This document shows positions 1-61,148 of a DNA stretch of 64,000 nucleotides, in pieces. The stretch spans positions 574,379 to 638,378 of the forward strand of contig CALYLW010000331.1 in the NCBI GenBank assembly GCA_944989445.1. Reading direction: 5' to 3'. How positions within the stretch are numbered: the first letter of the stretch is position 1; every line of letters begins with the position of its first letter. A program made the translations under genes and the position numbers. The notes beneath the pieces were generated by a model that saw only the letters and a list, made by a program, of their open reading frames with translations, was not told the DNA's origin and searched no databases. Source of the DNA: Ampullaceana balthica (lineage: Eukaryota > Mollusca > Gastropoda > Lymnaeidae).

Positions 1-45
1 AGAACAGCTAATTCTAAGTCTGCATCATCTGTAAATAGACAGTAT

Positions 46-3021: not shown

Positions 3022-3142
3022 TTTTTATTAGAATAACTTTGGCCTTGGCAGTTCCTACTTCTCTAGAAAAATCTTCAATTTTTTGTACTATTTTTAAATC
3101 AGAGGAATGAGACCTTTCTGAACTCATGTGCCATATGTCAAC
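3022..3142 (-). CDS. Gene A exon 4: middle of the NYN domain
   Basis: This 121 nt exon has acceptor CATCTTTTAG/GTTGAC and donor AAAA/GTAAGT. It encodes VDIWHMSSERSHSSDLKIVQ and onward to KVILIK. Gene B has an exon of exactly the same length and phases at 26521-26641. The D in SSDLK matches a conserved acidic position of MARF1-type NYN domains. Confidence 0.78.
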
Positions 3143-6100: not shown

Positions 6101-9100
6101 ATGAGGTTCTGTTGTCAAGACTTCTGACTGAGGTTGGCATCTCAATTATTTGTGGCTCTGATCTTCAGAAATTAGCCATATCATGGATAAAAGTTGGCAC
6201 TTATGACATCCCTTTCTCCAACACCATCAAAGATCTAGGTTTCTAAAATTGACAGAAAGCTCATGACGACCTCCCATATTGGTTCTGTGGTCAAAGCTTG
6301 TCAAAACCTAATGCAGAGTCTCCAGAAAGTGCAAAACATAGTAGCATGGATTATATTGTGGATGAGCAAGTCAGACCACATGAAACCGGCACTTAGGTAT
6401 CTACACTGTGGCTGAAAGAATAGACCATAAGGTTCTGACACTTTCTTATGGCTGTATGGGATTATCAGTGCTGCAGTAGCAATCAACATCGGAACATGTA
6501 TCTCTAAAGGGGCTACAATCTTCTACCCAGTCAGGTCTGAAAATTCCTGGTGTGGATAGAAACAGGAGGAAGTCCCTTTGCATGCGTTATTTTGAATCGG
6601 CGGCACCAAAATTATGGAACAGTATTCAGAAATTGTTCAAAGAGTATGAAAACAAAGAAAAATTAAAGAAAATTTTGAAGACTTTTTTTTATCCAATAAA
6701 GAGTTTTTTTTACCATCAGAGCGCAACTGACATGCCAGTATAGCATGGATAGTGTTAGTGCTATATATTTTTAAAAAAGAGGTTTGATTGTTTTGGTGAA
6801 GTATACAGCATTTTTTTGTTGATTAATTATTCAGGTAATTATGATGCCACTTCTCATTCCAATGATGTCAGATTTGCATGTCTGCTGATCTCCTACACAC
6901 ATCTCCTAAATGATATATAAATAAAATTAACTTCATAGATAGCATGCTTTCTAATACCAAAGGTTGCTTTGAATGACGACCATTTAAGCTTCATTTGAAT
7001 TTCGTGAACAAATTCAACATATACCTGACTCATTTTCAAATAATAATTCTTATTTCTACATACTGTGAAAAACCTGCTTATTGGAGAATGTAAAAAGGGT
7101 GGGTAAACTATTTCAATAAGCATATATTGATATATAGTTAATTTTTTATCACAATAATAAATTATTTAAACTACAAAGCATGAAGTTAAATTTAATTCTT
7201 ACCCCACAATCGTAAAGAGCCAGTTGTATCTTAATATGCAGTTTTTTAACATCCATTATGCAGCAGAAATATTTCTCTTCATTGTTTGGATCCACTAAAA
7301 TAAATTGTTTCCTTACAAGTTGTATTATTTCTTCAGGAGTTTTATCTCTGGGTATAGGACACTGTTGGACATCCCAAAGCACTAATACATAAACTTTCCC
7401 TAAAGGATCAATGATAAAATAATTCCACAAACTTGTAAAGCAACATTGTTAAATTCAATTCATAGCATGCATAAATAAAAAACATACCAGTAATTTATAA
7501 TCAAAAATATTTTTTTAAAGAAAAAATTAGTAACTTAGTTCACCTAGTTAGGACATAGCAGTGATAAAAAAATTGTAGATTTTAATAGCATCTTTTTTTT
7601 TCAGGCTTACTGATAACAAGTACAATAACTTCCTCTCTACCTAGCTTAAATGCAGTCCCCCCACCCGGTTTATAAAATGTTAAGAATGTTGAAAAATTGT
7701 GTGTAATGGTTAAATAAATTTTAAAAATAACTAATCTGCTGTTGATTAATTAAACAGACAGCCTCTATCTATTTTAATTGGAAGTTAGTTGAAAAATAGT
7801 AATCAGCATATTCAAAACTACTTAGAAAAAATTCAACATCCATACTGACCTGTTGTAGTTGTAAAATCAGAACCAGTTTGCCTTTAAGTATTAAATATAG
7901 GGAAAATATGCAATATAAAAATTATGGCAAATTTAGTCTCAACGAGGAAGAAGAACAAAAATAATCATTAATAATTAATTAATTACATATACAAACACAA
8001 AAATTTGATAAATGGCTAAAACAGCTTCCTACTAGATTTGAAATGGTATAGTTTTCTTAAGCTGACATGTTTTTGAGGAGCTTATAGTTCTTTCTAATGC
8101 AATTAGATAACAACAAAAAAACTTATTTTCATTACAAAATGTATATGTATTTTTTATTTAATATTAATTTTTAATTACAAATGACATGTGGACTATATTG
8201 ACCTAAACAATGTTCCCTCTAAGGTTCGTTGGTCAGTGTCCAAAGTTTTACATTCCACAAACACAGATACCTTATCCTTATCAAAATTTTGCTGGATGGT
8301 GATTCTAAACTGCTTCGTGGCGTCAGTCAGATATCTGCGCGGCCACTCAGCCACCCATCTTAAAGGGAACATTGGACCTAAATATAACTTAATCACGTCA
8401 AAATACATATGTTTATTTACCTCTGATTCAACAATAAAGGGGTATGCCCTGCTGCATTCTTCTTAATCTCATTAGTGGCTTCCTGGCTAATAGATTCAGT
8501 TGAAAGTCTCATTTTCTCTTCAATTTCATTATGTGTAACATTTTGAACTGTAATGATATTTTGATTGTGTGCATTCGTTTCACGTTTACTGCTAACAGTG
8601 CTTTGCGGAATTTCCTTTAGTGTTGTTGAATCAATATTGGCAGATGAGTTGCTACTAATTGCTCTCATCTTTGTCATAAATTGCATATTTTGCAACGTGC
8701 AACTATCTATTGGTTCACTGATAACACCAGGCTCACATTGCTCTTCAAACAAGTTCTTTGGAAATTTTGATTGCAAACATCTGGATTCCAAATTCTGATT
8801 TTCGGGAGTATCTATTGAAAAATTGTGCACCACTGCAGTCTTTTTTGGTCGACAACTTTCAGTTGGGGCCGTTACAATTTTCACAGCATTTAATGGTGAG
8901 TTGTTTTGCATTTTGTCTTCATCAACTTTGTACAATTGTTGATCTTTTGTTAAAATAATATTTGATTTTTCAATTGATGATTGTGTTTGACTTGATAGTC
9001 TTTTTAACTCAATAAGCCGAGTCTTATTTTCAATGAAGTATTTTTGCCTTTCTACATGCAACAAATATTCTCTTTCCCTAATTTCAAAAGCTTTTTTCTT

Positions 9101-9583
9101 CAATATTGTTCTAATGGTTTTCACATCTTTATCTGGCTTGTAATACCTTATAGGATACACATTTCGAAGAAAAATGTCAAGTTGCAACTCATTTTTATTT
9201 GAAGTTGTTAACACAGGAACAACATTCCCATAATAAAGAGATTCTGCTAAAGACGGATGGCTCTCATAAAAAATCTGGGTATATTTGGAGAACTCATTTG
9301 TAACATACAAAAAAGTAAACATAGCCAGTTTATAAACTTTATCCACTTGTTCAAGATGCAGGGCTTCCAGTTTTAAAATTTGCACTCTATATTTTTGACT
9401 TTGCAAAAATGTTTTAAAAGTTTCAGCATCTTTTTCATCTTTTGGTGCACATATTATAAGAATTTCAAAATAATGTTTCTGTAAGTCTGGTGACATAAAC
9501 CGAATATAGTCAGAATAATCATATCCAGGTCTATTGGCATTTGGGTGTGCTAAACACACATTTGAAGATGGACTCTCAGACAT
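3022..9583 (-). CDS. Gene A: TIR-domain protein fused to a MARF1-like NYN domain (3' end outside the window)
   Basis: Exons on the minus strand are 9583-8421, 7881-7850, 7399-7203 and 3142-3022. All junctions have GT/AG ends and the phases agree throughout. The first exon encodes a TIR domain (about residues 38-152; FEILIICAPKDE, FTFLYVTNEF, VVPVLTTSN), then a charged helix and a low-complexity linker. The later exons encode the first two thirds of an NYN ribonuclease domain (VLWDVQQCPIP, HSSDLKIVQ). The start ATG at 9583 is the first after an in-frame TAA in the same exon. The expected third NYN exon (DVDF block, seen in gene B) is not found between 3022 and 1, so the gene should continue past the left edge. 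The RHIM-like motif present in B and C is degraded here. Role in immune signalling with RNA cleavage is inferred from the domains. Confidence 0.78.
3372..4846 (+). mobile_element. hAT transposon with GTF2IRD2-like transposase remnant
   Basis: The ends are CAGGGGTGGGCAAACT and AGTTTGCCCACCCCTG, flanked by the 8-bp target duplication TTCTACAC / TTCTACAA. The frame 3565-4038 encodes the C-terminal part of a hAT transposase, ending in the dimerisation region (LFGPTYICEQAFSCMK). It is cut short by a TAG after the INKF sequence. The protein type is that of GTF2IRD2/ZBED-like hAT derivatives. The same family sits inverted at 28366-30049. Here it lies in the intron between NYN exons of gene A. Confidence 0.88.
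4212..4558. repeat. Insertion nested in the hAT element
   Basis: Compared with the sister hAT copy at 28.4-30.0 kb, the sequence is collinear up to AAATTATGTTCCTAC and resumes near TGACAGGTAACAATAAAC. The roughly 340 bp between (beginning GAGCAACAAAGCCCGTCC, ending CTTTTATTATATAGGA) are absent from the other copy. It is a separate short interspersed repeat of unknown class. Confidence 0.6.
4855..5631. other. Intron sequence, nothing recognised
   Basis: AT-rich part of the gene A intron between NYN exons. No coding frame or repeat terminus is evident. Confidence 0.5.
5632..5951. repeat. Long near-perfect palindrome (foldback element)
   Basis: The two arms of about 155 bp are reverse complements around TCCAGTAGAGATCTCTACTGG. 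The outer arms read GTGTATAACATATAAACTGG and CCCTGTTTATATGTTATACAC. The arms include GCCAACGTTTCGGCAAAGAG and CCTGACAGGACGTAACAAAA. A single diverged arm-like piece occurs near 14150-14240. Confidence 0.85.
6080..6745 (+). pseudogene. LINE reverse-transcriptase C-terminal remnant
   Basis: Broken frames on the plus strand spell VIDHEVLLSRLLTEVGI near 6090, then the signature of the region after the polymerase (RYFESAAPKLWNSI) at 6587-6630, ending in a lysine-rich tail (FKEYENKEKLKKIL). This is the usual C-terminus of CR1/L2/Jockey-type LINE proteins. Several stops and frameshifts show it is dead. It lies in a gene A intron. Confidence 0.7.
6746..7202. other. Intron sequence, nothing recognised
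   Basis: No credible coding or repeat structure between the LINE remnant and the first NYN exon of gene A. Confidence 0.4.
7203..7399 (-). CDS. Gene A exon 3: start of the NYN domain
   Basis: This 197 nt exon has acceptor GATCCTTTAG/GGAAAG and donor TGTGGG/GTAAGA. It encodes KVYVLVLWDVQQCPIPRD and onward to YDCG. WD followed by a hydrophilic residue and C is the first acidic strand of MARF1-like NYN domains. Gene B has the same length, phases and motif at 28031-28227. Confidence 0.82.
7850..7881 (-). CDS. Gene A exon 2: 32 nt linker mini-exon
   Basis: Acceptor TACTTAAAG/GCAAAC and donor CAACAG/GTCAGT. It completes an R codon from the TIR exon and then reads QTGSDFTTTT, leaving one base for the NYN exon. 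Without it the TIR and NYN exons are out of phase. Counterparts of 38 and 41 nt exist in genes B and C. The acceptor is weak, so the exact boundary is inferred from phase. Confidence 0.6.
8208..8374. mobile_element. hAT-type MITE with perfect 8-bp target duplication
   Basis: The ends are CAATGTTCCCTCTAAGG and CTTAAAGGGAACATTG, flanked on both sides by GACCTAAA. Related copies lie at 17928-18139 and 56871-57092. It sits in intron 1 of gene A, 46 bp past the splice donor of the TIR exon. Confidence 0.9.
8421..9583 (-). CDS. Gene A exon 1 (coding part): TIR domain, helix and linker
   Basis: It encodes 387 residues and two bases, ending CAG AG/GTAAATAA. The TIR domain spans about residues 38-152, with strand A FEILIICAPKDE, strand D/E FTFLYVTNEFSKYTQ, VVPVLTTSN, and a closing LRNVYPIRYYK. 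A charged helix (EIREREYLLHVERQKYF) follows, as in B and C. Near residues 346-354 VQNVTHNEI aligns with the RHIM-like region of B (VGNVTNLLIGDHGN) but lacks the LLIG core. Confidence 0.85.
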
Positions 9584-16860: not shown

Positions 16861-16884
16861 TTAAGCCATTCTTATTTCACCATC
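16861..16884 (-). CDS. Gene B tentative terminal exon
   Basis: Acceptor TATTAAACAG/GATGGT, then DGEIRMA and TAA. It fits the phase-0 donor of the previous exon. The exon is very short and its pyrimidine tract is poor, so another end is possible. Confidence 0.3.
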   Translation of the reverse strand, partial: DGEIRMA

Positions 16885-19800
16885 CTGTTTAATACAATTT
16901 TTTTTAAATATTAAAATTGCCTTTAAAATAAAAAATGTTTTAAAATGTATTCAGCAAAATTTAAATTCATATGTGGAAGAATTATGAATTATAAAAATTA
17001 TAATTATATGAAAAACAAACTTTATTTCCCTAATAAAAAATGATAATAGACTGCATAATTGTATAAGTTGAGATCCAACCTCTCAAATGTAAAATCAATA
17101 ACTAAGTGCATTAAATATAAATCCTTTAATTGAAAATGCTATAATATGAAAACTACAGGATCATGGAATTAGTAGTGACTCAAGATAATGCATGTATAGT
17201 GTATAAACTATTATATTTTATTACTGTATCTTTGGAGCTCGTTCCAAACCGAATATAACTCAAATTGTGAATTTTATTTAATAATATATAATAACCCCAG
17301 TTGTTCACTCACAAGGTTTATAAAATATTTATTTAATTCAGATTTTAAGATTTGAAATGGTACATACCAACGGATCTGACCCCACATCCTGAGTTTCATT
17401 TTCAGCTATTCTCTCTGAGTTTGAGGATGTTAGAGACCTATCACAACTTTGATTTTTGCCTCCAGTTTTACTTTTTCCCAAGTTTAATATTTCTGGTCAA
17501 AGAGTTTAATAAATAAAAATATGTTCTACCAGTTGGATTAGATGCCAAAAATATTTTTTTAAACAACAGTTTTAAACAAATACAAATAAGATGGACTTTT
17601 CCTAAAGCCAAAGTGAAAAAACTAAAGTTACTTTTCATTCATTTGAAGTTTCCTGATTAAAAAAGTGGTAGTGGTTTTTCTGGAAGCTAGCCTTTGTTAT
17701 AAGCATTCAAGAAACAGATTCTTGAATACTCAATGTATAATCGCATAGTCGATTTTTAAAATTTAACTTACTCTCAACACTTTTTCTAATTTCATCTGGT
17801 GCATCCTCCATAAAACAAACAGTCATTTTATTGTCTGCTTCAAAGGGCTCTTTTCCATTCGTTTTCTCTTTGGCACTGAAAAAAAAAGGAAATTAAGCAA
17901 ACAATAAATTCTAAAATGGCTTTTAATCATGTTCCATCTAAGGTTTGTTGGTCACGTGCAAAATAACAAATTTGTGTGAAAATTGCACAGCATCCATTTT
18001 TTGTGTGCATAATTTTACACCACAAAAACACTTTTACACAGATATAGTTGCCTTGTTAAATTTTATTCTAAACTGCTGCATGACCTTGGTCAGATATCTG
18101 CGTGGCCGCCGCTGGCCGCACAACTTAAAGGGAACATCGCTTTTATTTAATTTAATGAATTATGTCTCACAATAATTATTGGTAGAAATAAAAATCCACC
18201 TGCTTGGACCAATCAAAACCAAAAGTTAAAATAAATTTACTTTGTTTCCATAAGATACAAAGTGTAGTATTTTAAAATATACGAAGCTGTGTGAGAAGTT
18301 TTTCAAGTACAGAATAATCTTTTAAGTTGGAAAATCCTACTGAAAATGTAATGTGTATTTTTTTAAATGCGATGTAGGCCTAATCTAAAATTTAAACAAT
18401 ACTACCACTAAATATGGCCATAGACTGTTCACTGCATGACTGTCACTATACAATTTAGGAGGAGAGAAGCAAGAGACTTTTAAATAATTAAAACAAAATA
18501 ACATAAAAAGGTGTTTTGCCATCATCATTATGTATCAATAATTTATATATTTGCCTGTAGTTTCCAAATATAATGATAATCAATACTAAGAGTAACAATC
18601 AATTTACTTATTTCTTTTCCTCTGATTTTTAAATTTTACTACCTGTTGTATTTGCATGTCATTGCTTATAATGGTTACTGTTTTTAAAAAAAGTGTTAAA
18701 GAATACAAGAGGCTACAAAATTAAGATTCATATGGTAATTTTCTTAAAGGAGAAATAATAATTAATCAATAAACAGTCTTGAAAAATATCAAATTATTCA
18801 ACCGCAATCTAAATTGAGAAAAAATCAATTTTATCTTAAATTTAAATACAGGTCTACCTTTTGGCTAGCTCAAAGCTGTCAAACTTCAGTATGCCAAACT
18901 TATTACCACGCCGATTGATAACTTTCCCATTCCATTCACTAAAGAATGATTCCAGAATTTGTATGAAGTTTTTTCTTTTATCTTCTGATAATGGTTGATA
19001 ACCATGAACAATGAGAAATGGTTCATTTTCCAACTGAAAAATAGAACAATAAATTATATATATTTCTGAATTTAAATTTATCTTGCATTTATACCTTTGA
19101 ACCAAGATACAACAAAAACTCTTGTTTGCCATCTTATTTATGAAACTGAAACAATAAATGAAAATTTCAATAATTTTATTTATAAAAGAACTTAACATAG
19201 TATTTTAAATATTTGTCTCCAATTGTAAGTTCTAGAAGGGAAATGAATTTTATATCCTAATAAATATTAAAACATAATTATTGAGGTCATGTTTATTTAA
19301 AAGGTTTAGAGATGATAATTCATTCACTTTAAATACTGTTTAGATCTTTGCTACGCATTTATTTTTCTAATGGGGCAATTCAATAAGTGTCAATAAGGAT
19401 TTTCACAATCCAGAGCATCAAATTCTCACTTAATTTGTTTTTGGTTAGATACTGATCAATAATGCTTTGGAACTGATTAAATTATTGGAAGGCATTAAAA
19501 AACAGAGTGGAAATAATTCTCAAAATTATCAAAAATTTAGATGTTAAATACACTATCCCACTAAAACTTATTTACATGCAACTTTTCTTTCGCATCACAT
19601 AAAAACTGGCTATGTCTTTAAATAAAAAGACATTTCAAATTTTTAAATTATAAGGAGAACAGTGGACCTTAGAAACTAACCAAGTAACTTATTCAATGTC
19701 AATGCCCTCCCCACAATAATGTTATTTTATAAACTGTTCCTGCCACTCAACTTGAAATGTCACCTCATATTTCCTAAGAATATTAGCCCCCAGGTTTAAA

Positions 19801-22800
19801 AATTCCAATTTACCTTTATAGAAAACTAAATTTGAAATTACTTAACAGTTACAAATAAGTTCTACAATTCTTTATTGACATCACTTTCCTAAGAAACAAC
19901 TGTCAATTTTTTTATCAGAGGGTAATAATCATACAAGTGACTAGAGCTAATTTTATGTTTGTTGTTTTCTTGTCTTTTCAGATGAAAACACATCAGTCAA
20001 AACTGATTGATAATCATCAATCAATTAGTTCAATTGATATTTTTTGAACTGAAATTTTATTTATAAAATTATTTCACCATGTTTGTTTATAAAGTATAAA
20101 GCTTGAAAAGCAGTGGAGTGACAGCTTTATGACCCAAGCTCAATCTCAGTGGTTAACCATGAGTAAAATTTGTCATTTCCTTATACATTGTAATTTTTTT
20201 TTAAAAACTTAGTTTTATTTTAAAAAATTACATGTATGGAGTTTTAAAATTGATCACAAGATTTTACAAACATTACAAGGAGTATAAAATATATAAAACA
20301 CAATTTATTAAAGCACCCTTTTTTTTCCACATGAAAAAAAAAGACTTTAAATTAATTAAGACTTAAACGAAAGAGTTAATCGCTTTTGATAGGCAAAAAA
20401 TAGTGTATTCTTTATCACTCAATAAATTATAATTCCTTTTAAAGTAATTTTTAAAATCAACTATGCTATAATTTTCCTAGAATAATACTTTCATCTATAA
20501 GTAGTTTTTATGAATTTGAGTTAGCTAGATGACCCATGGCCATCTGATCATAAGGCTTAATAGGCACTGTGCCTTGGGCTCACAACTTTTCAGGGGCCTA
20601 CCAATTTTTTTTTAGATTAAAAAAATATTGCTGAAACTTAAATTTAGTGCTTCATCAGAAATTTTTTTTGGAAATTTAAGATGCAAATTTAATAACACTA
20701 TCAATTTACAGCTGTAACCCTATAAGATGAGAAATTGAGCTGTATGTTAACTTGTATGTTCTTTACATGGCATCCTTCAAAGTCATATCCCACATTATGT
20801 CTTTTTTCAAATGAAAGTAGTGCTATGGAGGATAGTTGTATTTTCCCATTGTGTACAGAAAATAAATTTTTATTAGCTTCAGTTTGGAAAATGAATGTTC
20901 AGATTTATAATTACCATTGAAGTAGATTCAAAAAGAAGTAGTTACATTGGAAAACTTGTCACCAACCTATTATAGATTTGTGCCATAATCATTTTAACCA
21001 CAGGATTACTGCCACCAAACACTTGTGAATATAAAGAACCATCAATAAATGCATGCCTCTTCCAGATCTGATGGATACATCTCATTTAATGGCTTGGCAT
21101 TAGAGTTGTTGAATCGATTGACTGAGATCTCTCCAGAATAAAGTTAAACTTTTCATGCAGTGCTGAGTAAGCTGCTTGCCCTTTTCCCATCTCAAGATGT
21201 CTATGAATACTATGATAACTGAGTACTGAGTTTGTAACTTAAACTTAAACTTAAAAACAGATATATTTTAGTCTTAAAATTCAATCTAAAACACAGAGTC
21301 AACTTATCAACGGGTCAGTGATAGTTTTGATATAATTTTTTGCACTGAATATGGGGAAATGTCTAGTTACTGGTAGTGCTAGTGTACTTTGATATACGTT
21401 GATACTGGGTACATGCACGCACACAGACAAAAGTCTGTTGATGCAAAAGTTGATAACGGTTAACCAGTGCTAGGATTCCTTTTAAATCTGGACCAGTCAA
21501 TCGTAAATCCAATTAGTCCATATTAGCTTATTAATCGGAGTTCATTTTAGGGTGTGTCATCTTATGAGCTACTACTACTATACCCTAAGGTTGTTAACAA
21601 TTAGAAAGTAGGGCAATGTACACGCAAGATATGATGACACCAAATCACCTTCTAATATTCTGGTATATAAAAAATAAAAAATTTAAAAATATTTAAAATT
21701 ACAGCTCATCACTGTTAGTGAAGTTCAGCTAATGAATTTTTTTTTATAATTCGTTGAGTTGCCGAGGCAGCAACAGTCCTTTGATAGATGAAGGAAATAT
21801 ACCTTGCTATCACTATCACTAATGATAAGTCTAATGTCTAAAGCAGATGAATTTACCATTAACTGACTGAACAATAGGAAAATATTTCACTGCAGCTGAG
21901 CAGCTCCACACAGCAGATTAACCAACCAAATTTAGGCTGTGGGCAGTGCATGACGAATCATTCCACTTAATTGTTAATCTCTCTTAATCTAGCCTGTACG
22001 CCAGAATAAATAATACTCATATTGTCTGTATTGTCATATGATAGTGATCTGCAATTAGCGATTGCCAAGGTACGAGAATCACTGGTCTTAAATGTACTGA
22101 TACTGATATTGTTGTACATAATAGTGAAGTGTAGTTGTGCGCACCGGACTATTGTGTGTCGCACCGAGACGCACAAGGATGGAAAGAAGTAGAGAGAGAA
22201 TGAAGCAACTTAAACTTAAAGACGGTTTATGCTATGTTGGATTGAATAAACTTCTTTGATATGCATGTACTTGTGACTTGGACTTACTGTCTTATAACTG
22301 GCCACCACTCGGCTTTATTAATAGTTGAATACAGGGGTGGACTGGGCCGCCGGGACACCGGGAAAATTCCCGGTGGGCCGCCAGGACCGGTGATATAATA
22401 ATAATTAATCTTGAAAAAAATGTCCTGTTTGCTGCTTTTCTGTACTACATAAATACAGTTTCTAGGGGCAAACATACAAACATCTCTTTAGCGCTTATAA
22501 ACTCTTATTGCCTCTGTCGTCTACCCAAGTAGCTTGTGAGAGATCTTTCTCTAAACTGAAATCAGGGCCGGCCCCGCGCTTTTCAGGGCCCACGCTTTGA
22601 CTAAACATTTTTACTACTTTTTACAATTTTACTACTATTACGCAAAAAAAATGTTTATAACAACGTAACTAGAAAACTTTATATTTATTTTTTCAGGATA
22701 AAATAAGTAGAACAATTCCGTACTAATATAACATATTATAATCATCATAAATCCTAATCCAAAAAGTATTTTTCCTAGTGTATTTTAGTAAGCATTTATG

Positions 22801-25800
22801 GATTCAGAACATTTTAAAAACGAGAACTCCACTTTTAGGCTAAACTTGCAACGGTAACTGAAATTTTTTTTAAAATGTGTTAGACTGTCTGATCATGATA
22901 AATCAAAGGGACATAATATTACATCTACTTTGGAATGGTTTGAGATGAAAAACAGGTTAACAAAACAATGACAATTGACAAGCCACGCCAAAAAATAATA
23001 AACAGTGAAAAGGCTCGTTGACATTGTATATTTCAACGTCTCATGGCCATTGTCCCAATTTCTCGCTCAGCTATTTTATAGTTCAGTTGATAAATACATC
23101 AGGCACAAAATGGAAAATTTCTGGCTCTCGTCGAATCGCTGGCAAAATTTGTTTCGGTTTTGCAGGAAAATATATGATTAATAAAAATTGATGAAATTCA
23201 TGATCACTACTTTAGAAAAGCGCATTCAAAACGAACTCATTTCGTTGATGAGAAATAAGGTAAGGAAAATTATTGTAGGAAGAGTAAAATCATGTAAAAA
23301 CTTTTCAGTAATACTTGATTGCACACCGTGCCAATGTCACCAAGAACAGATGCCACTGACAATGCGCTTTGTAAGCCAAGGAGGTGGATATTCTGAAGTA
23401 ACTCATGAGCACTTCATACGTTTTCTAGAAGTGGAAGAAAGTACTTGGCAACAAATGCTTGATGTCTTACTATTGGAATTGAGAAAATTTGGCTTAGATG
23501 TTTCTGATATCCACGGTCAAGGATACTACAACGGTGCGAATATGATAGGCATAAGTGAGACGTACAAGGTCGTCTTTTACAATTATTGTACCCTTCGCAG
23601 CTACAACTTGCTGCTATGTTATATGATAAAAACTTGTCTTGATGCAATGACGTTTTTTTGGTATAATTTAACGAATCTATATTTTCTGCTTCAACAAAGC
23701 GATGTGCTTTATTTTCCAAGTGTTTGAAATATTTCTGTGAAACCACTGAAAGAAAATTGGAGAGCCATGTGGAAAGCGCAAAGGTAGTGCGATATCAAGC
23801 AGGAGAAATGGATGATGAACTTTGCAAAGTACCATATCAAATTAGTGATCTAAAATCTTGAAGTGAAGCAGAGTCTTTGTGCAAACAACTTAAGAACTTC
23901 AATTTCATTGTTTCAAATGCTTTTTGGTACGACATATTGTCGCAATTTAATTACACCAGCAAAGAATTACAAAATATTTCTGTCGGTCTAGTAACTGAAG
24001 TTGAGAGCATGTAACATACTTACAAATGGTCGAAATCTTACTGCAATCGTGGTTTTGAAACAGCAATAACATTTGCAAAGAAATTGCCACAGACATAGAA
24101 GTTGAACCCATTTAAACCCAGTTGAAAAAGATATAAAACAATTTATATATGAAGGAGAAGACGAAGGACTTGTAGATGCACAAGAAAAAATTACCACAGA
24201 TTTTTTACTAGTTGGTTGATATGCAATCATGTCAATGGACATGTAATTTGAACTAATACTAAGGCATCATGACTCGTTTTGGATTTCTTTTTAAATTTCA
24301 TCAATTACAAAACAATGATCTACTGAATTGCTGTATAAATCGTGAGAAGCTCACTGTCTGCGAAAGTAAGGACCTTGATGGTTTCATGCTTGCTGAAGAT
24401 TTCAAATCATTGAGTTCCATAATTCCTGCAGTTACCTACAACGATCTTGTTAATATTTTGCAGTTGCTTTCAAAAAAATTATTCCTGTCACTTTGGCTTC
24501 CGAAAAAGAAGCTTTTCGAAACTAAAACTTATTAAAACCTATATGGGATAAACAATGATTCAAGATCGGCCCGATGTTTTAAGTGAACTGAATAATGACA
24601 CAATTATAGATCATGTAGCCGAAATGTCACCCAGCTTAAAGAAGTTGCTTATGCTTTAAACACCATCATAGAGAGTCAGAATAAATTGATTTATAGCTTG
24701 AATTGACGCATTCTTTGTATTTTATTTAAAAATAAATTTAAAATGCGATTTATCTTTTTTTTTCTGGTTGTTATTGTATATAGTAATTTGTAAAGTGACC
24801 CATGACTTTGAAGGTCTTGGCCCTCACGTTTGGATGGAGAAAATGCACAAGGAAAATAAAAGTTATGAAGATAGGGCCGCTTTTTTTTTCCCCGGGCCGC
24901 TTTTACTCCCCAGTCCACCCCTGGTTGAATATCATTGAACAAGAGTCTTAAGTAACCAGAACCCAGTACACAACAGCGATATATGCACTCTGAAGTCTAA
25001 GCATATTCTGAAGAAGATTGAAGAAACTGCTTCTCTGCGGTTTGACTGCCGTTCCATTATTTGAGAATTAGTGTGACTGAATCTATATGACTGATGTCAG
25101 GGGGTGAATGAATACTAATTCCATTATATATGAAGCATTTTTTAAATTCATAAATTATATTCATGAATATTTTGGACCTTAATCAATAAATCATTGCATC
25201 ACTGCAAAAATACATAAAGTATGTGACCCTTTCCAGGAAGATCTGTACCTCTAAAATGTGTTCCTATAGAAAAGCATCAAATTCATCTAATAGGTCACTG
25301 AACAATGGTAATTTCTATTGTTAGGACAATTAAGTTTTAGTCAACACAAAAAGCTAATTCTCTTGCAGCTAGAAATCTGATCACAGCAACTATTTCTTTC
25401 AGGATATCAGTCCAGTATTTGCACAGTTTATGCTTTTCCTTCAGCAGTTTTCATGAAGTCAGTTTACCTGCTGACATTCCAAGATCCTTGAGAGCAATTT
25501 ATTTTTGAAGGATATTAATTTAAATTTGGGGCAATTTGCTCACAGCAAAAAAGAAGTAATGTATATTTGTATACATATATGACATTTAATATATATTTAA
25601 TTTACTAAAACGTTATAGTCATTGAATAAGGAAACAATTGACAATTATGAGTAAATAAAAATAATGAGATATGACTTTGGCAAAAAATGTGAAAGTATTT
25701 AGTGTCATTGCACAGCTGTTCACATGTTGACATTTTGAGTTGAGGTGGGCCTACGAATATGAGTGCCTAAGTCCTACAAAGACCTCAAAACAGCCCTGGT

Positions 25801-28800
25801 TACACCCCACTAATACGTGCCAATGCACACTTTTAAAACCCCCATGAACTACATTATAAATATTCAAATGTCCCACAGTTAAAACATCACAAGTTCCTGA
25901 AAATAAAAAATGGTAATGATACCTTTAATATTTGTATACAAGTAAACAAAACAATATACAAGATTATGACAAAGACACAGTATTTACTAATATCTCATGT
26001 CTATCAGCAAGTTCCTCAATGAGCTCTTCATAACTGTGGCTTTCATCAACAGAATGCAGTAACTCAGGTTTGATGTACTTTCTGTGTAAAAGGATGATGT
26101 GAAATCCCTTCTTTTTCAGATCAGCCAATTTAATGTTGAAATCTACATCACCTGTCAATAGTCATTCAATTCACAAATGAATTAAAACAGAAATCTTTAA
26201 TTCCTCATATGAAACTGGTCTATCCAAAATATTTGTGTAATTCTTTAATTTCGTGCACAAGCATCTTTTAACTGCCATGTAAACTGGAAAGTAACAAGTT
26301 GTTTGTTTGTTGTTTTGTTGTTGTTGTTTTTTTGGGGGGGAGGGTAATTTATTTTTTATTTATTTTTTTTAAATACAGAAGAGTTTAAGTTTACAAATAA
26401 ACAAACTACAGGTTAAAAAAGTTTGCTCAAGGATGCAATCAGTAATCATAAATCCTTTACCATTATTTGTGACACTCTAAGGCAGAAAGAAAACATTATA
26501 TCTGAACATTTAATTCTTACTTGTTATAAGAATAACTTTTCCCCTAGCATCTCCAATATCTCTGGCAAATTCTTCCATCTCTTGTATAATTTTAAAGTCA
26601 GAGGAATTATCTTTGTCCGAACATATATCTAACAGGTTAACCTAAAAGGAGGAAAATGAGGGGGATTTTATATTAAGAAAAAAATAATAATTGATTAAAA
26701 ACAATCAAGAGTTATCTATCCCTATTATGGAAAAATCATAAATCTTGGGAGAAATGAGAGTTCAGTTGTTAAAATATTGAATATATTAATTTCTATTATT
26801 TAAAACTATTCTTAGTACAACAGAAAAAGGCCAGAATACAGAAAATTATTCAATATATTCTAGTTAGCCATGACTAAGCAGCTAGCATTACAATTCACAG
26901 TTTTGGATTGAGTTTGTCTTAACTCAAACTGAGGATTTATTACCTTTCACTATCACATTTATCTAATACTCTATCATAAAAATTATACTTTCATTACATT
27001 TGTAATGAAAAAACATATTTTGAATTTTCTAAATCTAAAATTTCTTTTGTTTCAAGGCCAGGAATCAATATTGCTATGAATAAATACATTTTGTGAGTAG
27101 AAGCTAATGATGATCCCTTTGTTTTCTTTTAATGTAGAACTATTGAAATCTGTTATATATTGTGGAGGACCTGGGTTGAAATAATTGAGAACCTTGGTTT
27201 AAATATTTGAGAGGGGAGCGGACGGTAGGTAGGCGACGTACCTGAAATGTAATGATGCGCTCAGACAATTACCGGAAATGAAAGTATTCCGGCCTCTCTC
27301 TTTCCCCCCCCCCACCCCCAGGTACGGGATGTTGGGTGGTCAAATGCGCATAAATCGTATCAATGAATTCTGAGTCGGACGTAGGACGTGGGAAAACGCC
27401 TATGCGCTCACGCCCGGCGACCACGCCGATGTATCAATGAACTCTGAATGGACCACGGAACGTGAGGAATACACCTAACACCTCACGTCTGGTTGATTGG
27501 ATCAGCTATTAAGGGGCGTTGGTTGTAAGGAAGACAACAGTTATTTATCATTGTGACTTGTAAAGAAAGTCACGGATAAACCCGGGAAAGAATTCGTGGG
27601 GGGAAATTAAGGGTCGAAGGTTAATAGATTAAACTTTGACACCTCGAGGGAAACCGAGGATATAAGGCGAGAGTTTAGAGTGTTTAGGGGGAGAACAACC
27701 CACCCCGGGGTAAGAGAGCGGCGTGGTCGCCGGGCGTGAGCGCATAGGCGTTTTCCCACGTCCTACGTCCGACTCAGAATTCATTGATACGATTTATGCG
27801 CATTTGACCACCCAACATCCCGTACCTGGGGGTGAAAGAGAGAGGCCGGAATACTTTCATTTCCGGTAATTGTCTGAGCGCATCATTACATTTCAGGTAC
27901 GTCGCCTACCTACCGTTCCCCTCTCAAATATTTAAACCAAGGTTCTCAATTATTTCAACCCAGGTCCTCCACAATATTGCGTCCAATGAAAATTATATAA
28001 TAAAAAGACTAGAGTGAACTTATTACATACCCCACAACTAATTATATCCTGTCTTGTCTTTCTACTCTCAGAAGCAGCATCTGTTATGCAATAGAAACGT
28101 TTTTCTTCATTGTTTGCATTCACTAAAATGAACTTTGCCCTTATGAGCTTGATTATATCAGCAGCAGATTTCTTCTTTGGTACAGGACAATTTTGCAAAT
28201 CCCAAAACACGCCAACATAAATTTTACCTGAAGAGATTAATTTGTAATAATTTTTAATAAAGTTAAGACTAGCATTGTTAGAAAAATTTTAGCTGTTCTA
28301 GAGTTTTGCTGATATTAATTCACTGATTTGAAAACATTTTTTAGTTAGCATGCAATGTGCTAGCACAGCGGTGGGCAAACTTTTTCTACGGAGGGCCACA
28401 TTGAAAACTTAATTGCTATAGGCGGGCCGTGAATATATTTTGTCTACTTCAATTACAATTTACAAGGTAAAAAAATATGAATTAAAGATTATAACCATGA
28501 ACTTGTCATTTTATTTCACATTCACACTCTATTACACATGTACATTACATTTTAAAATAAAAACTGAAACAGTTTCTAATTTGATTATAAGATTTTACTA
28601 TTCATTATTATTTCAACCAAAGTTTATTGTTACCTGTCAAATTAATTAAGAAGAAGTAGGAACGTAATTTATAAATAACCTGACCATAGAGCACAAATAT
28701 AATTATTGAGAAGTATGTGACTGTTTACAATTTTTGATAATGTTCTTTAACTGTGCAACTAGTTTACTGGATGTGATTTGCATGACTGCATTCAAATTGT

Positions 28801-31800
28801 AGTCAGTCAACATCGATCTGTTCTTAGACTTGATTATTTTCATGCAAGAAAAAGCTTGCTCACAGATGTATGTGGACCTAATTAGTGGCAAAAGTTTAGC
28901 AGCAAAGTTTTTTAAGTGTAGAAATGCTGCTGCTGGCAAACATCCATAAAACTCCAGGAAAAGAAATGACTTGAACTTCTCCTCAGGTCATAAACTGCTT
29001 GTAGGTCAAGCAGCTCTAACGGTATATCCTCTGAGGCTGAATCAGCTTCTGCACTAAATGGCAAACTGAGGATATTTAAGAGTGGTTCCAGGTTTTTGAA
29101 GTCTTGGAACCGCCTTCAAATTCCACAGCCAAGGCATCTGAATGAGCCTTGTACTTTTCAGCCTTTTCAACAGAAATGGTTTTCTGTTTCAGCAAAGGAA
29201 CAAAGCAAAAACCTGTTTTCACCTGTTTGCCTGGACAAAAGGGAGAGCTTTGCCTGAAATGATTTAACATACACATACATGTCATGTGCAAACAAGCTAT
29301 TGCCCTGAAGTTTGACATTCAGTTTATTCAACTTTTCCATAATGTCAATAGCAAATATTAAGTATGACTTCCACTCCTCATTAAAAATGTTAGTAACAAA
29401 GTCACAAACAAACCCTTGATTTCCAGGAACATAACTATTTCTTCCTTGAGATCCCACACTTGCCTCAATATCTTGCCCAGGCTCAGCCAGTGGACACTGC
29501 TGTGGTAGATAATATCAGAATATTCAGTTTCCAAATCTTCAAGCAGTGCCCTGAACTGCCAGTAGTTAATAAGTGTCCTGGCTCTGATGAGGTTTATCGC
29601 AACCGACAACTGGGTCAATAACATGCTTGATATTCAATGCAGCTTTACACATACTTTTATGTCATTAAAAACACACTTTTGTCCTCAATCTTACTTTTTT
29701 TGGGCAGCACTCATTGTTAAATCAACGTCTATTTACTTTTATATTACAATTTTTACAAAACCACCAATATGTAAATCATAAACAAAAGCCACTTCCAGTT
29801 GAGCTGAAATGCAATTTCAAAAAAGGATGTTTACTATTAATGACTGATGATCACTAATCGATGCTAGAGCCATGAAACCGATTTAATATCCTTAGATTTG
29901 AATCAAATAATCGGATTAATATTTTTTAAAATATTGCAAAAATTCTAAACAAAGAAAATAAACATCCACATTGGATCGCAACATGTACATGCCTACGGGC
30001 CGCATAATATACTCTGGCGCTGCCCACGGCCGTAGTTTGCCCACCCCTAGGCTAGCATGTTTTGCATTTCTTTGACAATCTGATATACTTTACTGTAAAA
30101 TACCTGAAAAACATGTCAGTAAACTATCGATAAAACAAAATAAATATAAGATGACAATTTTTTTTAAATTTAAGCGATGTAATTTGAAATAAAGAACACA
30201 CAGTGAGACACTAAATAACATTAAAAACAAACAAAAAAAACATTTTTTTCATTTTGTACTAACCTGGTTTAAAAGTACAGTCAGTCAGATTTGGCTTTGA
30301 TCTATTTTTTTTATGGGTAAAAAATACATTTAAATAAGATATAGGAAGGCTTTACCCTTTTATAACTCATTAACGACTAAGTAGCAAAGAAGAGCTTGTA
30401 AATTTAAAAACTCTTAGTAATTCACATTTTTCTTTCTTTAACGATAGGGTTCCATCAATTAACAGATAATCTTTAATTGTCTTATATAATAAGCAGACTT
30501 ATCAAATTAACCTGAAATATTTCACTAGCTTGACTTCAAATTAGCCATGACATTCAGATATTTTTGTTAAATATGATTTTGTTGTTACGTTTTAATTTTT
30601 GTCAAAGTTTACATCAAAATTACAGCAATTTTATTTTATGACAACTTAGTGCTTGTCACTGTAATTGTGCAAAAAGGTTTTACAATATATTGTACTGTTA
30701 GTAAAAAGAGCTGTTTTCCCTTTCATTATTTTAAATGAGAAAACAGCTTGTCTGAAATATTAAAAATAAGAGTTGGGCCTTTTTTAATCAACTATCTTTT
30801 ATCTTAACAATAATATATAAAAATGGTAAGAGAAATTAACAAAGAAAAAAAAACATTACCTATTAGATGCAGATCCAGGGTTTAAACTAATAGGGTTCAT
30901 TGATGCTTCTCTATCAATCTTCAGGACATCCAGATCATCATTGTTGGCTGAGTTATTGTCCTTATTAGCGTCTTCCTTTCCAATGTTTCCATGATCCCCA
31001 ATTAAAAGATTAGTTACATTTCCAACATTTAAATGAGTGTGATAGTGAGTCTCAGGTTTCCCCTTCTCAGCCTGTTGTGGGATTTCTGTTTGAGCAGTTG
31101 GTGAAGATGTGGAGCAGCTAGATGAAGTTGTCGATTTAGGAGGAGATTTTATATCCTGAGATGCAGGTCCATCTATCTGTACATCATTATTTAGGTATTC
31201 TAAAGCAGGGTTTGACTTAAGTTGAACCCCTAGCTGGTCAATTAAAGAAAGTTTTTTTACGGCTTCTGTTGGATCATAATTACTAACACTTTTTTCAGTG
31301 ATACCATCATTTTTCTTGACTAAAGTTTCATCTGTAGTACATCTTGTGGTATGAGTCTTCATTTCTGTATCTTTAGTCTGGTTATTGTCCTCTACTGCCT
31401 TAACAGGTGAGTGCGTTTCTAAATCAAAGAGATCAGATTTCTTGTCCTTATAATATTGTTCTCTTTGTAGATGCAATGCCCGATCTCTAATTGCCATCTC
31501 TCTTGTTTTTCCCGCCAAAAGCTTTTTAATGGTGTTCTCATCTTTATCTTTCCTATAATATCTTATAGGATGCAAATTGCGAAGCAGAATGTCAAGTTTT
31601 ATCTCATCTCTATTGCTATTAGTAAGCACAGGTACAACACTCCAATTCTTACTCTCATCATTTAAAGTTTGTGATAAAAAAATATGGCTTCGAAAAAGAG
31701 CTGTGGTACACCTACAGAATTCTTTAGTGACAAACAAAAAGAAAAACATGGCCCTTTGATAGGCCTGCTCCATTTCAAATGGACTTCCAATTTCTAAGAT

Positions 31801-32139
31801 TTGCACTCTATAACCCAGAATTAATAAATATTTTTTGAAAGCATCAGCCTCTTCTTCATCAGACTGAGAACAAATTATTAAAATTTCAAAATAGTCATGC
31901 TTTAATTCTGGTGGCATTAAATGTATATATTTACGGTAATCATCCTGAGCTGTTATTCTATCTGAAGATCCTGAATTTCCTGATCTTTGTAAACGTTCAG
32001 GAGTAGACAAACTTGCTATCACATGATCGTTGTCAGACCTTGAGCATTGTGATCTTGTTGGAATTGGATCAGGGTGTAATGAGGCAACAAAAGTAGATTC
32101 TCCCTGTGCATCTGTTTCTAAGTAACTATTTGACGCCAT
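16861..32139 (-). CDS. Gene B: TIR / RHIM-like / NYN ribonuclease / RRM-like fusion protein
   Basis: Nine coding exons, all with GT/AG borders and matching phases: 32139-30860, 30301-30264, 28227-28031, 26641-26521, 26151-25988, 19033-18858, 17875-17772, 17492-17368 and tentatively 16884-16861. They give about 742 residues. In order: TIR domain (about 84-197), charged helix, low-complexity linker, RHIM-like motif (LLIGDHGNI, 378-386), NYN domain (about 440-600; VFWDLQNCP, NSSDFKIIQ, ITSDVDF, FHIILLHRK), RRM-like segment (about 601-692; PFLIVHGY, KFGILKF) and an acidic, Ser/Asn-rich tail. The NYN and RRM part resembles MARF1, an endoribonuclease. The TIR and RHIM-like part resembles TRIF-type adaptors. 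The start ATG at 32139 follows an in-frame TGA in the same exon. Combined immune and RNA-decay function is inferred. Confidence 0.85.
17368..17492 (-). CDS. Gene B exon 8: Ser/Asn-rich tail
   Basis: This 125 nt exon has acceptor TTTGACCAG/AAATAT and donor CCGTTG/GTATGT. It enters with two bases, has 41 open codons and leaves in phase 0. It encodes ILNLGKSKTGGKNQSCDRSL and onward. No domain is recognised. Confidence 0.7.
17772..17875 (-). CDS. Gene B exon 7: end of RRM-like region and acidic stretch
   Basis: This 104 nt exon has acceptor TTTTTTTCAG/TGCCAA and donor GAGA/GTAAGT. Both phases match the neighbours. It encodes AKEKTNGKEPFEADNKMTVC and onward to DEIRKSVE. Its last strand-like segment (MTVCFM) could complete the RRM-like fold. 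Confidence 0.75.
17928..18139. mobile_element. hAT-type MITE (copy 2)
   Basis: Same family as 8208-8374, with ends CATGTTCCATCTAAGG and CTTAAAGGGAACATCG. The target duplication is CTTTTAAT / CTTTTATT (7 of 8). It lies in a gene B intron, only about 50 bp upstream of the acceptor of exon 7. Confidence 0.8.
18858..19033 (-). CDS. Gene B exon 6: RRM-like domain
   Basis: This 176 nt exon has acceptor CTATTTTTCAG/TTGGAA and donor CCAAAAG/GTAGAC. It encodes NEPFLIVHGYQPLSEDKRKN, a helix with FFSEWNGKVINR, then KFGILKFDSFELAK. The strand-helix-strand-strand order and the position after an NYN domain match the RRM-like region of MARF1. The RNP motifs are weak, so the fold assignment is tentative. 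Confidence 0.72.
19034..22331. other. Large gene B intron, left part
   Basis: AT-rich intron sequence. Near 20550-20620 CCTTGGGCTCACAACTTTTC and AGGGGCCTACC look like a worn hAT terminus, without a partner. The part around 22150-22310 (AATAAACTTCTTTGATATGC, TTATAACTGGCCACCA) shares its end with the LTR-like piece at 49260-49480. No host exon seen. Confidence 0.4.
22332..24923 (+). mobile_element. hAT transposon of the ZMYM1-like (DUF4371) type, degraded
   Basis: The ends are CAGGGGTGGACTGGGC and CCCAGTCCACCCCTG, with the perfect 8-bp target duplication GTTGAATA. The frame 23188-23727 encodes the transposase core (FSVILDCTPCQCHQEQM, DIHGQGYYNGANMIG). A second in-frame block is at 24269-24535 (GFMLAEDFKSLSSIIPAVTY), with stops between. 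Near the left end, 22505-22560 spells the C-terminal signature STQVACERSFSKLKS, so the coding order is scrambled. It lies inside the gene B intron between the NYN and RRM-like exons. Confidence 0.9.
25988..26151 (-). CDS. Gene B exon 5: end of the NYN domain
   Basis: This 164 nt exon has acceptor CTATTGACAG/GTGATG and donor ATATTA/GTAAAT. With the preceding A it encodes SDVDFNIKLADLKKKGFHII, then LLHRK. (S/T)DVDF with FHIILLH is the diagnostic end of MARF1-type NYN domains, and the D of SDVDF is an expected active-site acid. If the donor is not used, the frame ends seven codons later (VNTVSLS, stop). Confidence 0.85.
26521..26641 (-). CDS. Gene B exon 4: middle of the NYN domain
   Basis: This 121 nt exon has acceptor CCTCCTTTTAG/GTTAAC and donor ATAACAA/GTAAGA. 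It encodes VNLLDICSDKDNSSDFKIIQ and onward to KVILIT. It has the same length and phases as gene A exon 4. Confidence 0.85.
27158..27977. repeat. Foldback element with inverted arms of about 250 bp
   Basis: ATATTGTGGAGGACCTGGG at the left is repeated inverted as CCCAGGTCCTCCACAATAT at the right. The arms (to about 27412 and from about 27728) are nearly identical over their length, including GGTACGGGATGTTGGGTGGT and CGCTCACGCCCGGCGACCAC. The unpaired centre contains CGGATAAACCCGGGAAAGAA. No transposase. It is much more GC-rich than the intron it occupies and ends 53 bp from the splice donor of gene B exon 3. Confidence 0.88.
28031..28227 (-). CDS. Gene B exon 3: start of the NYN domain
   Basis: This 197 nt exon has acceptor ATCTCTTCAG/GTAAAA and donor TGTGGG/GTATGT. 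It encodes KIYVGVFWDLQNCPVPKKKS and onward to ISCG. FWDLQNCPVP is the first conserved acidic strand of MARF1-like NYN domains. It shares length, phase and most residues with gene A exon 3. Confidence 0.87.
28366..30049 (-). mobile_element. hAT transposon, same family as 3372-4846, inverted
   Basis: The ends are CAGCGGTGGGCAAACT and AGTTTGCCCACCCCTA, with target duplication TGCTAGCA / GGCTAGCA (7 of 8). Transposase remnants on the minus strand run from 29624 to 28703 in at least three frames: NLIRARTLINYWQFRALLED, YHSSVHWLSLGK, GNSLFAHDMYVYVKSFQAKL, and the C-terminal RSTYICEQAFSCMKI. Frameshifts make it inactive. It sits in the gene B intron between the mini-exon and the first NYN exon. Confidence 0.88.
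30264..30301 (-). CDS. Gene B exon 2: 38 nt linker mini-exon
   Basis: Acceptor AAAAATAG/ATCAAA and donor AAACCAG/GTTAGT. It reads SKPNLTDCTFKP between shared codons and converts phase 2 to phase 1, so that the NYN exon is in frame. The position and phase match the mini-exons of A and C. Confidence 0.65.
30860..32139 (-). CDS. Gene B exon 1 (coding part): TIR domain, linker, RHIM-like motif
   Basis: It encodes 426 residues and two bases, with donor AATAG/GTAATG. The TIR domain (FEILIICSQSDEEEADAF, MFFFLFVTKEFCRCTTALF, WSVVPVLTNSN, LRNLHPIRYYR) spans about residues 84-197. A charged helix (RDRALHLQREQYYKDKK) follows, then a Ser/Thr/Pro-rich linker, a His-rich lead (HYHTH) and VGNVTNLLIGDHGNIG. 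LLIGDHGN fits the RHIM core pattern of hydrophobic, any, hydrophobic, Gly, then Asn three residues later. Confidence 0.88.
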
Positions 32140-57414: not shown

Positions 57415-57596
57415 TCACACATATTTTGCATATGTCTGATGCTGTTCAGCAATTAATAAGCTGTTATCAGCTTCATTATTTGAGGTCTCTATTGGTTCCC
57501 TTGTAACTGGTTCACAACATTCTGGAAATCCTACTGCTTGCTCAACTGGTTCTTTTTTTAATTCTTTCATTGATGTTTCTCCTCCTGATGCAGAAA
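57415..57596 (-). CDS. Gene C exon 5: terminal tail
   Basis: Acceptor TGACACATTTCAG/TTTCTG. It enters with two bases and runs ISASGGETSMKELKKEPVEQ to AEQHQTYAKYV and TGA. It occupies the place where A and B have the first NYN exon, with the same incoming phase, but shows no similarity to NYN. Confidence 0.72.
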
Positions 57597-60500: not shown

Positions 60501-61148
60501 GGTGGTCAACTGTACCTTTCTTTTGTGTGTGTCTATTGACCAGTCATGTTACTTACCTTTTACTTAATCTTAGTACAAATAGCCATCAACATTTATTTAT
60601 CAAAACCATAATATATTTAAATAACATTAATGTAATTTAAAGTGATTTTTGTGGAGTAATAATAATAATAATTTTGCATTGAGCTATATTTTTTACTCTT
60701 TAGAAAAATAAAGCATTTATGTGAAATTTAAGCAACAGTAGCAAAAAGGATTTCAGCTGATGGACAGACAGTATTCCCCCTTTAAAAAATTCACAAGTTT
60801 AGACCCTAACCATAAAAGCAATATATTATATGTTGAATTACCTGTGTAACAGCAATGTTTTATTTCAAATGCATGTTGATTAATCTTTGACAACTGAAAT
60901 TCCATTTTACAAACTGTACAAAGTACAAATGATTCTGGCTGAATGAAGGGCTTCATAACAAGTTTAGAGATAGGCATTTACTTAAGAATTAGTCAATTGT
61001 AGGTCACGGTAACACATTATGATAAAAACAATTAATTGTTAAATTAAAACTTAAATTGACTCTTAGCTAGTTGTCCTTTACAATAATGTTTATTACCTTT
61101 TATGGGCTCTGCTTCTGCATCAGTCTGAATGGCACCTTGCGATGACAT
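57415..61148 (-). CDS. Gene C: TRIF-like TIR / RHIM-like protein with N-terminal zinc finger
   Basis: Five coding exons on the minus strand: 61148-61097, 60934-60842, 60391-58225, 57943-57903 and 57596-57415, all GT/AG and in phase, giving about 844 residues. In order: a short acidic N-terminus, a C2H2/U1-like zinc finger (C23, C26, H38, H44), a TIR domain (about 134-265; CDILIIHAESDKKEA, YVFLYVTKEFCDCTW, WCVIPVHTKS, LRPINYWK), a charged helix, a long Ser/Pro/Gln-rich linker, then a His run and a RHIM-like motif (ATNILIGDQSKF, about 721-732), an acidic stretch, and a 60-residue tail. TIR followed by a Pro-rich linker and a C-terminal RHIM is the arrangement of vertebrate TRIF (TICAM1). It lacks the NYN domain of A and B. 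Orthology to TRIF is not established. Confidence 0.83.
57903..57943 (-). CDS. Gene C exon 4: 41 nt linker mini-exon
   Basis: Acceptor TTCAACAG/GCTTGA and donor ATTCAGA/GTATGT. It reads LERPSAQSADCIQ between shared codons. It is the counterpart of the 32 and 38 nt mini-exons in A and B. Confidence 0.72.
58225..60391 (-). CDS. Gene C exon 3: TIR domain, linker, RHIM-like motif
   Basis: Acceptor TATCTTTCAG/ATACCA and donor CCTCCAG/GTAAAT. 721 open codons. It is longer than the equivalent exon in A and B because of a Pro/Gln/Ser-rich linker (NPPPPQTVMGQNG, HVPFLYNPYINMPFQQPSW). The helix after the TIR domain reads LLQRDQILEEDRSRFFE, as in the paralogues. The exon ends in an acidic segment (STDEDEDASFE). 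Confidence 0.87.
60842..60934 (-). CDS. Gene C exon 2: C2H2/U1-like zinc finger
   Basis: This 93 nt exon, acceptor CATTCAGCCAG/AATCAT and donor ACACAG/GTAATT, reads ESFVLCTVCKMEFQLSKINQ then HAFEIKHCCYT. The spacing is C-X2-C-X11-H-X5-H. Both phases fit exons 1 and 3. An ATG at 60977 in the same frame could instead make this an alternative first exon. Confidence 0.7.
61097..61148 (-). CDS. Gene C exon 1: start
   Basis: ATG at 61148, MSSQGAIQTDAEAEPIK, donor ATAAAAG/GTAATA. It leaves one base, matching exon 2 and also exon 3, so exon 2 could be skipped without breaking the frame. Confidence 0.65.

Follow-up and report, generated by a model that had tools for sequence, protein, structure and literature searches.

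Relation to described systems

The TIR adaptors of animals signal by assembly and, to our knowledge, the destruction of RNA in animals is the task of enzymes that are separate from these adaptors. A 64,000-nucleotide stretch of contig CALYLW010000331.1 from the gastropod Ampullaceana balthica, termed here the window, contains a gene, gene B, in which both properties appear to be joined. In gene B a TIR exon is spliced in one frame to a complete MARF1-type NYN ribonuclease domain and an RRM-like tail (minus strand, 32139-17368). Several described systems resemble parts of this arrangement.

At the ribonuclease end, the closest system is MARF1. The NYN domain of gene B aligns with the MARF1 structures 6fdl and 5yaa, and it is followed by an RRM-like segment. 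MARF1 differs in that two RRMs and LOTUS repeats follow the NYN domain, and no TIR domain is named for it in the available source text.

KHNYN works together with ZAP; it has a KH-like domain and is not known to contain a TIR domain. It shares with gene B the use of an NYN protein, which in the ZAP antiviral pathway is reported to be directed against viral RNA (PMC6615859).

At the adaptor end, the order of a TIR domain followed by a RHIM-like core, found in gene B and in the neighbouring gene C, is as in TICAM1/TRIF (PMC9440496, available sections). TRIF and TRAM differ in that no RNase is named in either, and the RHIM-like core here gives no Pfam RHIM match. The available parts of two papers place TICAM in chordates (PMC9334734, PMC9440496), and one of them (PMC9334734) reports an unsuccessful search for TRIF and TRAM in Aplysia.

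Proteins in which the TRADD-N adaptor domain is joined to RNase modules, NYN and HEPN among them, have been described (PMC8195603, available sections), and thus an immune adaptor domain and an NYN RNase are already recorded in one protein. The TRADD-N and NYN fusions are from cnidarians and brachiopods in that text, whereas the domain here is TIR and the species are Lymnaea stagnalis and A. balthica. The preliminary description of the window had presented the gene B architecture as one not known to be described. For TIR-NYN the literature searched (most subscription papers were outside its reach) agrees, as it gave no description of such a fusion, but TRADD-N-NYN proteins are on record. By a term search, the main text of a Lymnaea immune transcriptome study does not mention TICAM, RHIM, a TIR domain, MARF1 or NYN (PMC7919325).

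Gene B and the Lymnaea fusion proteins

Gene B has eight exons on the minus strand and a tentative ninth. Exon 1 (30860..32139, 1280 nt) encodes the start methionine, the TIR domain, a long linker and the RHIM-like core. Exon 2 (30264..30301, 38 nt; RSKPNLTDCTFKPG) is a small linker exon whose phase fits and which has a counterpart in the Lymnaea protein P0001 described below. The NYN domain is divided among exon 3 (28031..28227, 197 nt, with FWDLQNC and D449), exon 4 (26521..26641, 121 nt, with SSDFK and D520) and exon 5 (25988..26151, 164 nt, with SDVDF and D547). Exon 6 (18858..19033, 176 nt) carries the RRM-like segment, with 81% identity to P0001 over 58 residues; this segment ends in exon 7 (17772..17875, 104 nt), and exon 8 (17368..17492, 125 nt) encodes a C-terminal tail. 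A tentative exon 9 (16861..16884, 24 nt) closes the frame. All nine exons have AG/GT borders and agreeing phases, exon 1 opens with ATG, exon 9 closes with a stop codon, and the spliced exons form one open frame of 742 amino acids. The exon lengths and phases given in the preliminary description were all recovered, and P0001 backs exons 1 to 8. The tentative exon 9 is unsupported, as P0001 and its relative P0002 both stop at the equivalent of exon 8.

Two proteins of L. stagnalis carry the same fusion. P0001 (764 amino acids) is collinear with spliced gene B, with 63% identity over 98% of the query, and spans exons 1 to 8. P0002 (659 amino acids) is a second fusion, with 44% identity over 100% of the query; its match runs over exons 1-8 but leaves exon 2 and the RHIM-like stretch with no clear equivalent. 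The query was spliced gene B minus the 38-nt exon and exon 9. The N-terminus MAS...LETDA is common to gene B and P0001. Among the candidates scored (approximately 8000, approximately 8000 and 1864 in the respective searches), these two L. stagnalis proteins are the only ones found in the protein database. A relative comes within reach of the searches if it has exact five-residue words in common with the query and is 0.55-1.75 times as long, a range that excludes full-length MARF1. The domain order had been proposed for a search in other gastropods, and P0001 and P0002 provide it.

The join between the TIR and NYN parts depends on exon 2. Without a small exon in between, the phase of the TIR exon does not agree with that of the first NYN exon. 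Several other small exons would also fit there, and direct comparison of the introns of genes A and B detected no counterpart of exon 2 in gene A. From the window sequence alone the 38-nt exon is therefore doubtful. P0001 carries the exon 2 linker at the splice junction, with RSKPNGTDC where gene B has RSKPNLTDC, and this resolves the join. Gene B thus almost certainly encodes the TIR and NYN parts as one protein, as judged by comparison of predicted sequences, and the fusion is supported by four genes: A, B and the two of L. stagnalis.

Domains of the gene B protein

The NYN domain is the most clearly recognized part. Gene B NYN matches the MARF1 structures 6fdl (E value 1.6e-27) and 5yaa (1.5e-26) over residues 4-157 of a 295-residue query, and Pfam NYN is well over the cut-off of 24.2 bits in P0001 (50 bits) and P0002 (59 bits). 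The complete MARF1-like NYN domain of the preliminary description is thus borne out. The acidic active site of human MARF1 consists of Asp358, Asp426, Asp427 and Asp452, and activity is strongly reduced when Asp426 and Asp427 are changed together (PMC6294520, available sections). In the structure-match alignment D358, D426 and D452 correspond to gene B D449, D520 and D547, and these three counterparts are kept in gene B, P0001, P0002 and gene A. The D427 position is F521 in gene B, F in P0001, I in P0002 and L in gene A. By this alignment the gene B active site, with three of the four MARF1 aspartates, is mostly, not fully, kept. In gene A the asparagine of the DxxN motif is also replaced by Q (DVQQC where gene B has DLQNC). 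The NYN domain of gene A may thus be dead, although three acidic residues remain in it.

Other NYN loci of the genome are nearer to MARF1. With the first NYN exon, contig C845 scores 90 bits to MARF1, C2620 56 bits and gene B 42 bits; gene B is therefore not the animal's MARF1. Orthology of gene B with MARF1 was rejected on this ground and because P0001 and P0002 have one sub-threshold RRM and no LOTUS domain. The C845 NYN exons (L028:4606-5858), with their much greater likeness to MARF1, probably represent the animal's own MARF1. A whole-genome NYN family search gave no matches although NYN exons exist, and is uninformative on absence.

The TIR domain (residues 86-208; 31516..31884, minus strand) is divergent: as read from these comparisons it is below the Pfam cut-off in single sequences, yet clear as a profile. 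Pfam TIR_2 gives an E value of 3.6e-4 in gene B, with 21.4 bits for gene B and 23.6 for P0001 against a cut-off of 28. Pfam finds no TIR match in genes A and C (E<=1) or in P0002 (E<=10). A profile built from the five family members matches TICAM2/TRAM chains in PDB with E values of 1.8e-7 to 2.2e-7. TICAM1/TRIF chains follow at 0.11 and 2.2; the remaining four of the nine matches are non-TIR proteins (0.17 to 3.6), so TICAM1 and TICAM2 are the sole TIR proteins of the PDB set matched at E<=10. The TIR domain of the preliminary description thus holds as a profile match, but not as a Pfam assignment for the single sequences of gene B or P0001. At what we take to be the position of the NADase catalytic glutamate, placed through the TRAM alignment, the residue is R in gene B and P0001, K in P0002, Q in gene C and E in gene A.

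The genome as a whole shows a large TIR repertoire, with at least 80 TIR_2 matches over the cut-off, many of them on single contigs (e.g. C10, C229). On 105 reading frames of at least 60 amino acids, taken from ten of these matches, the family TIR profile scores at most 6.9 bits, and the TIR family of genes A, B and C therefore appears to stand apart from those ten loci.

The RHIM-like core of gene B, LLIGD (residues 378-382; 30994..31008, minus strand), lies within NVGNVTNLLIGD in the long, poorly conserved linker and is shared with P0001 and gene C. It reads NVTNLLIGD in gene B and P0001 and NATNILIGD in gene C. The RHIM core consensus is [IV]Q[IV]GxxN; relative to it, LLIGDHG (gene B) and ILIGDQS (gene C) have L in place of Q, and G or S in place of N. 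The linkers of P0001 and gene C align with a score of 69, reached by none of 1000 shuffles, and those of gene B and gene C with a score of 54, reached by six of 1000; both scores are raised by a His-rich run that lies beside the core within the matched stretch. The core may represent an amyloid-type motif.

A similar frame occurs elsewhere in the genome. On contig C2620 (L030:2468-2770, L030:1908-2129) an exon-like frame, STQINIGTAEHVAI, with a RHIM-core-like sequence is located just upstream of a MARF1-like NYN exon, and a disrupted copy of this frame is on C1070 (L032). The C2620 frame has no Pfam match.

The segment encoded by exons 6 and 7 is likely an RRM. RRM_1 is sub-threshold, with E values of 0.13 in P0001 and 0.11 in P0002, and a four-sequence profile matches the RRMs of nucleolin (0.058) and hnRNP Q (0.088) in PDB. 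The matches to this profile also include proteins that are not RRMs, namely one from a phage (0.062) and HU proteins (0.25, 0.28). The RRM is therefore considered likely and not demonstrated, and it is weaker than the preliminary description has it.

By Pfam, P0001 thus has an NYN domain over the cut-off, and TIR_2, DUF5615 and RRM_1 under it. Pfam detects no LOTUS (OST-HTH) domain in either Lymnaea protein, and NCBIfam and PADLOC gave no match to P0001 and P0002.

Neighbouring genes and other sequences

The window contains three tandem TIR exons, those of genes A, B and C. Searches of the 1.1 Gb genome with the gene B and gene C TIR exons gave only these three among the matches listed (at least three). 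To look for TIR domains beside other MARF1-like NYN loci, the family profile was compared with 3479 reading frames of at least 25 amino acids. These came from the window, C845 (20 kb), C2620 (18.8 kb), C87 (20 kb), C1070 (7.8 kb) and a further two C331 stretches, and genes A, B and C alone gave a match.

Gene A is also on the minus strand. Its TIR exon (8421..9583) is counted from the first methionine of the frame, a putative start. NYN exon 1 (7203..7399, 197 nt, with DVQQC) and NYN exon 2 (3022..3142, 121 nt) have the same lengths as in gene B. NYN exon 3 begins at 1..28 and its remainder is beyond the window, as are an RRM-like exon (C331:572144-572326) and a counterpart of exon 7. The order of exons (TIR, three NYN, RRM-like, exon 7 counterpart) is that of gene B. 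For gene A, neither a linker exon nor an equivalent of exon 8 was located. Between genes A and B, ratios of non-synonymous to synonymous substitution rates (dN/dS), by simple counting without a significance test, are 0.51 for the TIR exon, 0.67, 0.37 and 0.17 for the NYN exons (dS of the third is 2.61 and saturated) and 0.21 for the RRM-like exon; exon 2, the linker, exon 7 and exon 8 are left out of the comparison. As the ratios are below 1, both halves of the fusion look kept as protein.

Gene C is modelled, again on the minus strand, as a plain TIR/RHIM-like adaptor form of the same gene without an NYN domain. The model consists of exon 1 (61097..61148; MSSQGAIQTDAEAEPIK), whose phase fits and whose N-terminus is like that of gene B; exon 2 (58225..60391), with the TIR domain and the core ILIGD; a linker exon 3 (57903..57943); and a terminal exon (57415..57596). 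It encodes 813 amino acids with no internal stops. The N-termini of gene C (MSSQGAIQTDAEAEP) and gene B (MASNSYLETDAQGES) agree at 6 of 15 positions, ungapped. The basis of the model is phase, splice signals and this N-terminal likeness only. The 41-nt exon 3 has the place and phase of the 38-nt exon 2 of gene B; given these matching phases, the NYN exons of gene B appear to start in the phase of gene C's last exon.

Several other sequences are found in and around gene B. The intron that follows the first NYN exon holds a large imperfect palindrome (27157-27977), whose arms measure 116, 89 and 73 nt and are 96-100% complementary. A hAT-like dimerisation fragment (28703-28987; Pfam E value 0.009, below the cut-off) lies in the preceding intron, between exons 2 and 3. 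DUF4371 matches below the Pfam cut-off are present on the plus strand at 23185-23727, within gene B's long intron, and at 39604-40116. Between genes B and C (49728-50652) are reading frames with zf-RVT, barely over the cut-off, and RNase H, below it, likely a retroelement remnant.

Possible function and alternatives

The gene B protein may be a TIR adaptor with a built-in RNase effector. The TIR domain, perhaps together with the amyloid-like core, would gather copies of the protein on an activated TIR partner. This clustering would concentrate the NYN domains and lead to cleavage of RNA held by the RRM-like tail, the target most likely being viral or retroelement RNA. On balance, the reading slightly favoured here is a TIR adaptor that concentrates its own RNase part when it assembles. 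Pfam shows no receptor domain in P0001 (gene B itself was scanned exon by exon), and 'adaptor' therefore fits better than 'receptor'; the preliminary description had left the choice between the two. Expression, a cytoplasmic location, assembly and RNase activity would all be expected of the gene B protein, as would activation by assembly and the suggested target. We infer in particular the activation link between TIR assembly and the MARF1-type NYN nuclease.

A number of points weigh against the assembly-activated adaptor-RNase. The immune role is a proposal, and the fusion itself is known from genomic sequence and protein comparison rather than from a transcript of the species. At the active site the D427 counterpart is lost; the published inactive mutant has D426 and D427 changed together. 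Pfam RHIM gives no hit at E<=10, and the RHIM-like core is missing in P0002, while gene A has it in degenerate form. The core is thus not required for the fusion, and of the RHIM-like motif in the preliminary description there remains a short core common to gene B, P0001 and gene C. In addition, when a TRAM TIR fragment of 99 residues was searched back against the genome, 17 weak matches came up (best E value 0.009), none of them on C331, the contig of gene B. The gene B TIR is therefore regarded as TICAM-resembling and not TICAM, and orthology with TICAM (TRIF/TRAM) was dropped in view of the reverse search and the absence of Pfam RHIM.

A different role for the nuclease is somewhat unlikely: the fusion might be recruited to TIR complexes and, instead of attacking invading RNA, trim host immune mRNAs in the manner of Regnase- or MARF1-type nucleases, and so limit the response. 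The NYN domain is specifically of the MARF1 type, and human MARF1 degraded a targeted reporter mRNA (PMC6294520, available sections). Nevertheless, LOTUS, the main RNA-binding array of MARF1, is the domain that Pfam does not find in P0001 and P0002. Host and foreign RNA targets are not separated by the present data.

It is doubtful that gene B encodes an RNA sensor, in which a weak or dead NYN domain would bind RNA and signalling would proceed through TIR. The hydrophobic residues at the D427 position (F or I in gene B, P0001 and P0002, L in gene A) and the additional change of the DxxN asparagine in gene A are consistent with such a sensor, but the three other aspartates are kept in all four sequences and a further acidic residue is present in DVDF. 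A false joining of neighbouring TIR and NYN genes is very improbable: the hAT-like fragment in the intron preceding the first NYN exon, the tiny exon 2 that is not found in gene A and the chance that the Lymnaea protein models are computed would allow it, but the same order is present in two Lymnaea proteins and in genes A and B, and linker residues agree at the P0001 splice junction.

The adaptor with an attached RNase can tentatively be extended to a wider possibility. The locus might represent a protostome TRIF-like arm, in which TIR (and RHIM-like) assembly would activate the attached RNase against viral or retroelement RNA without a kinase or transcription step, and in which the plain adaptor (gene C) and the adaptor-RNases (genes A and B) would be tandem copies. 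If the adaptor-RNase reading is correct, a conserved gene with both parts would constitute a direct-acting immune adaptor that could be tested in cultured cells, and the fusion would, given the unsuccessful search for TRIF and TRAM in Aplysia (PMC9334734), also inform the question of how RNA viruses and retroelements are kept in check in snails.
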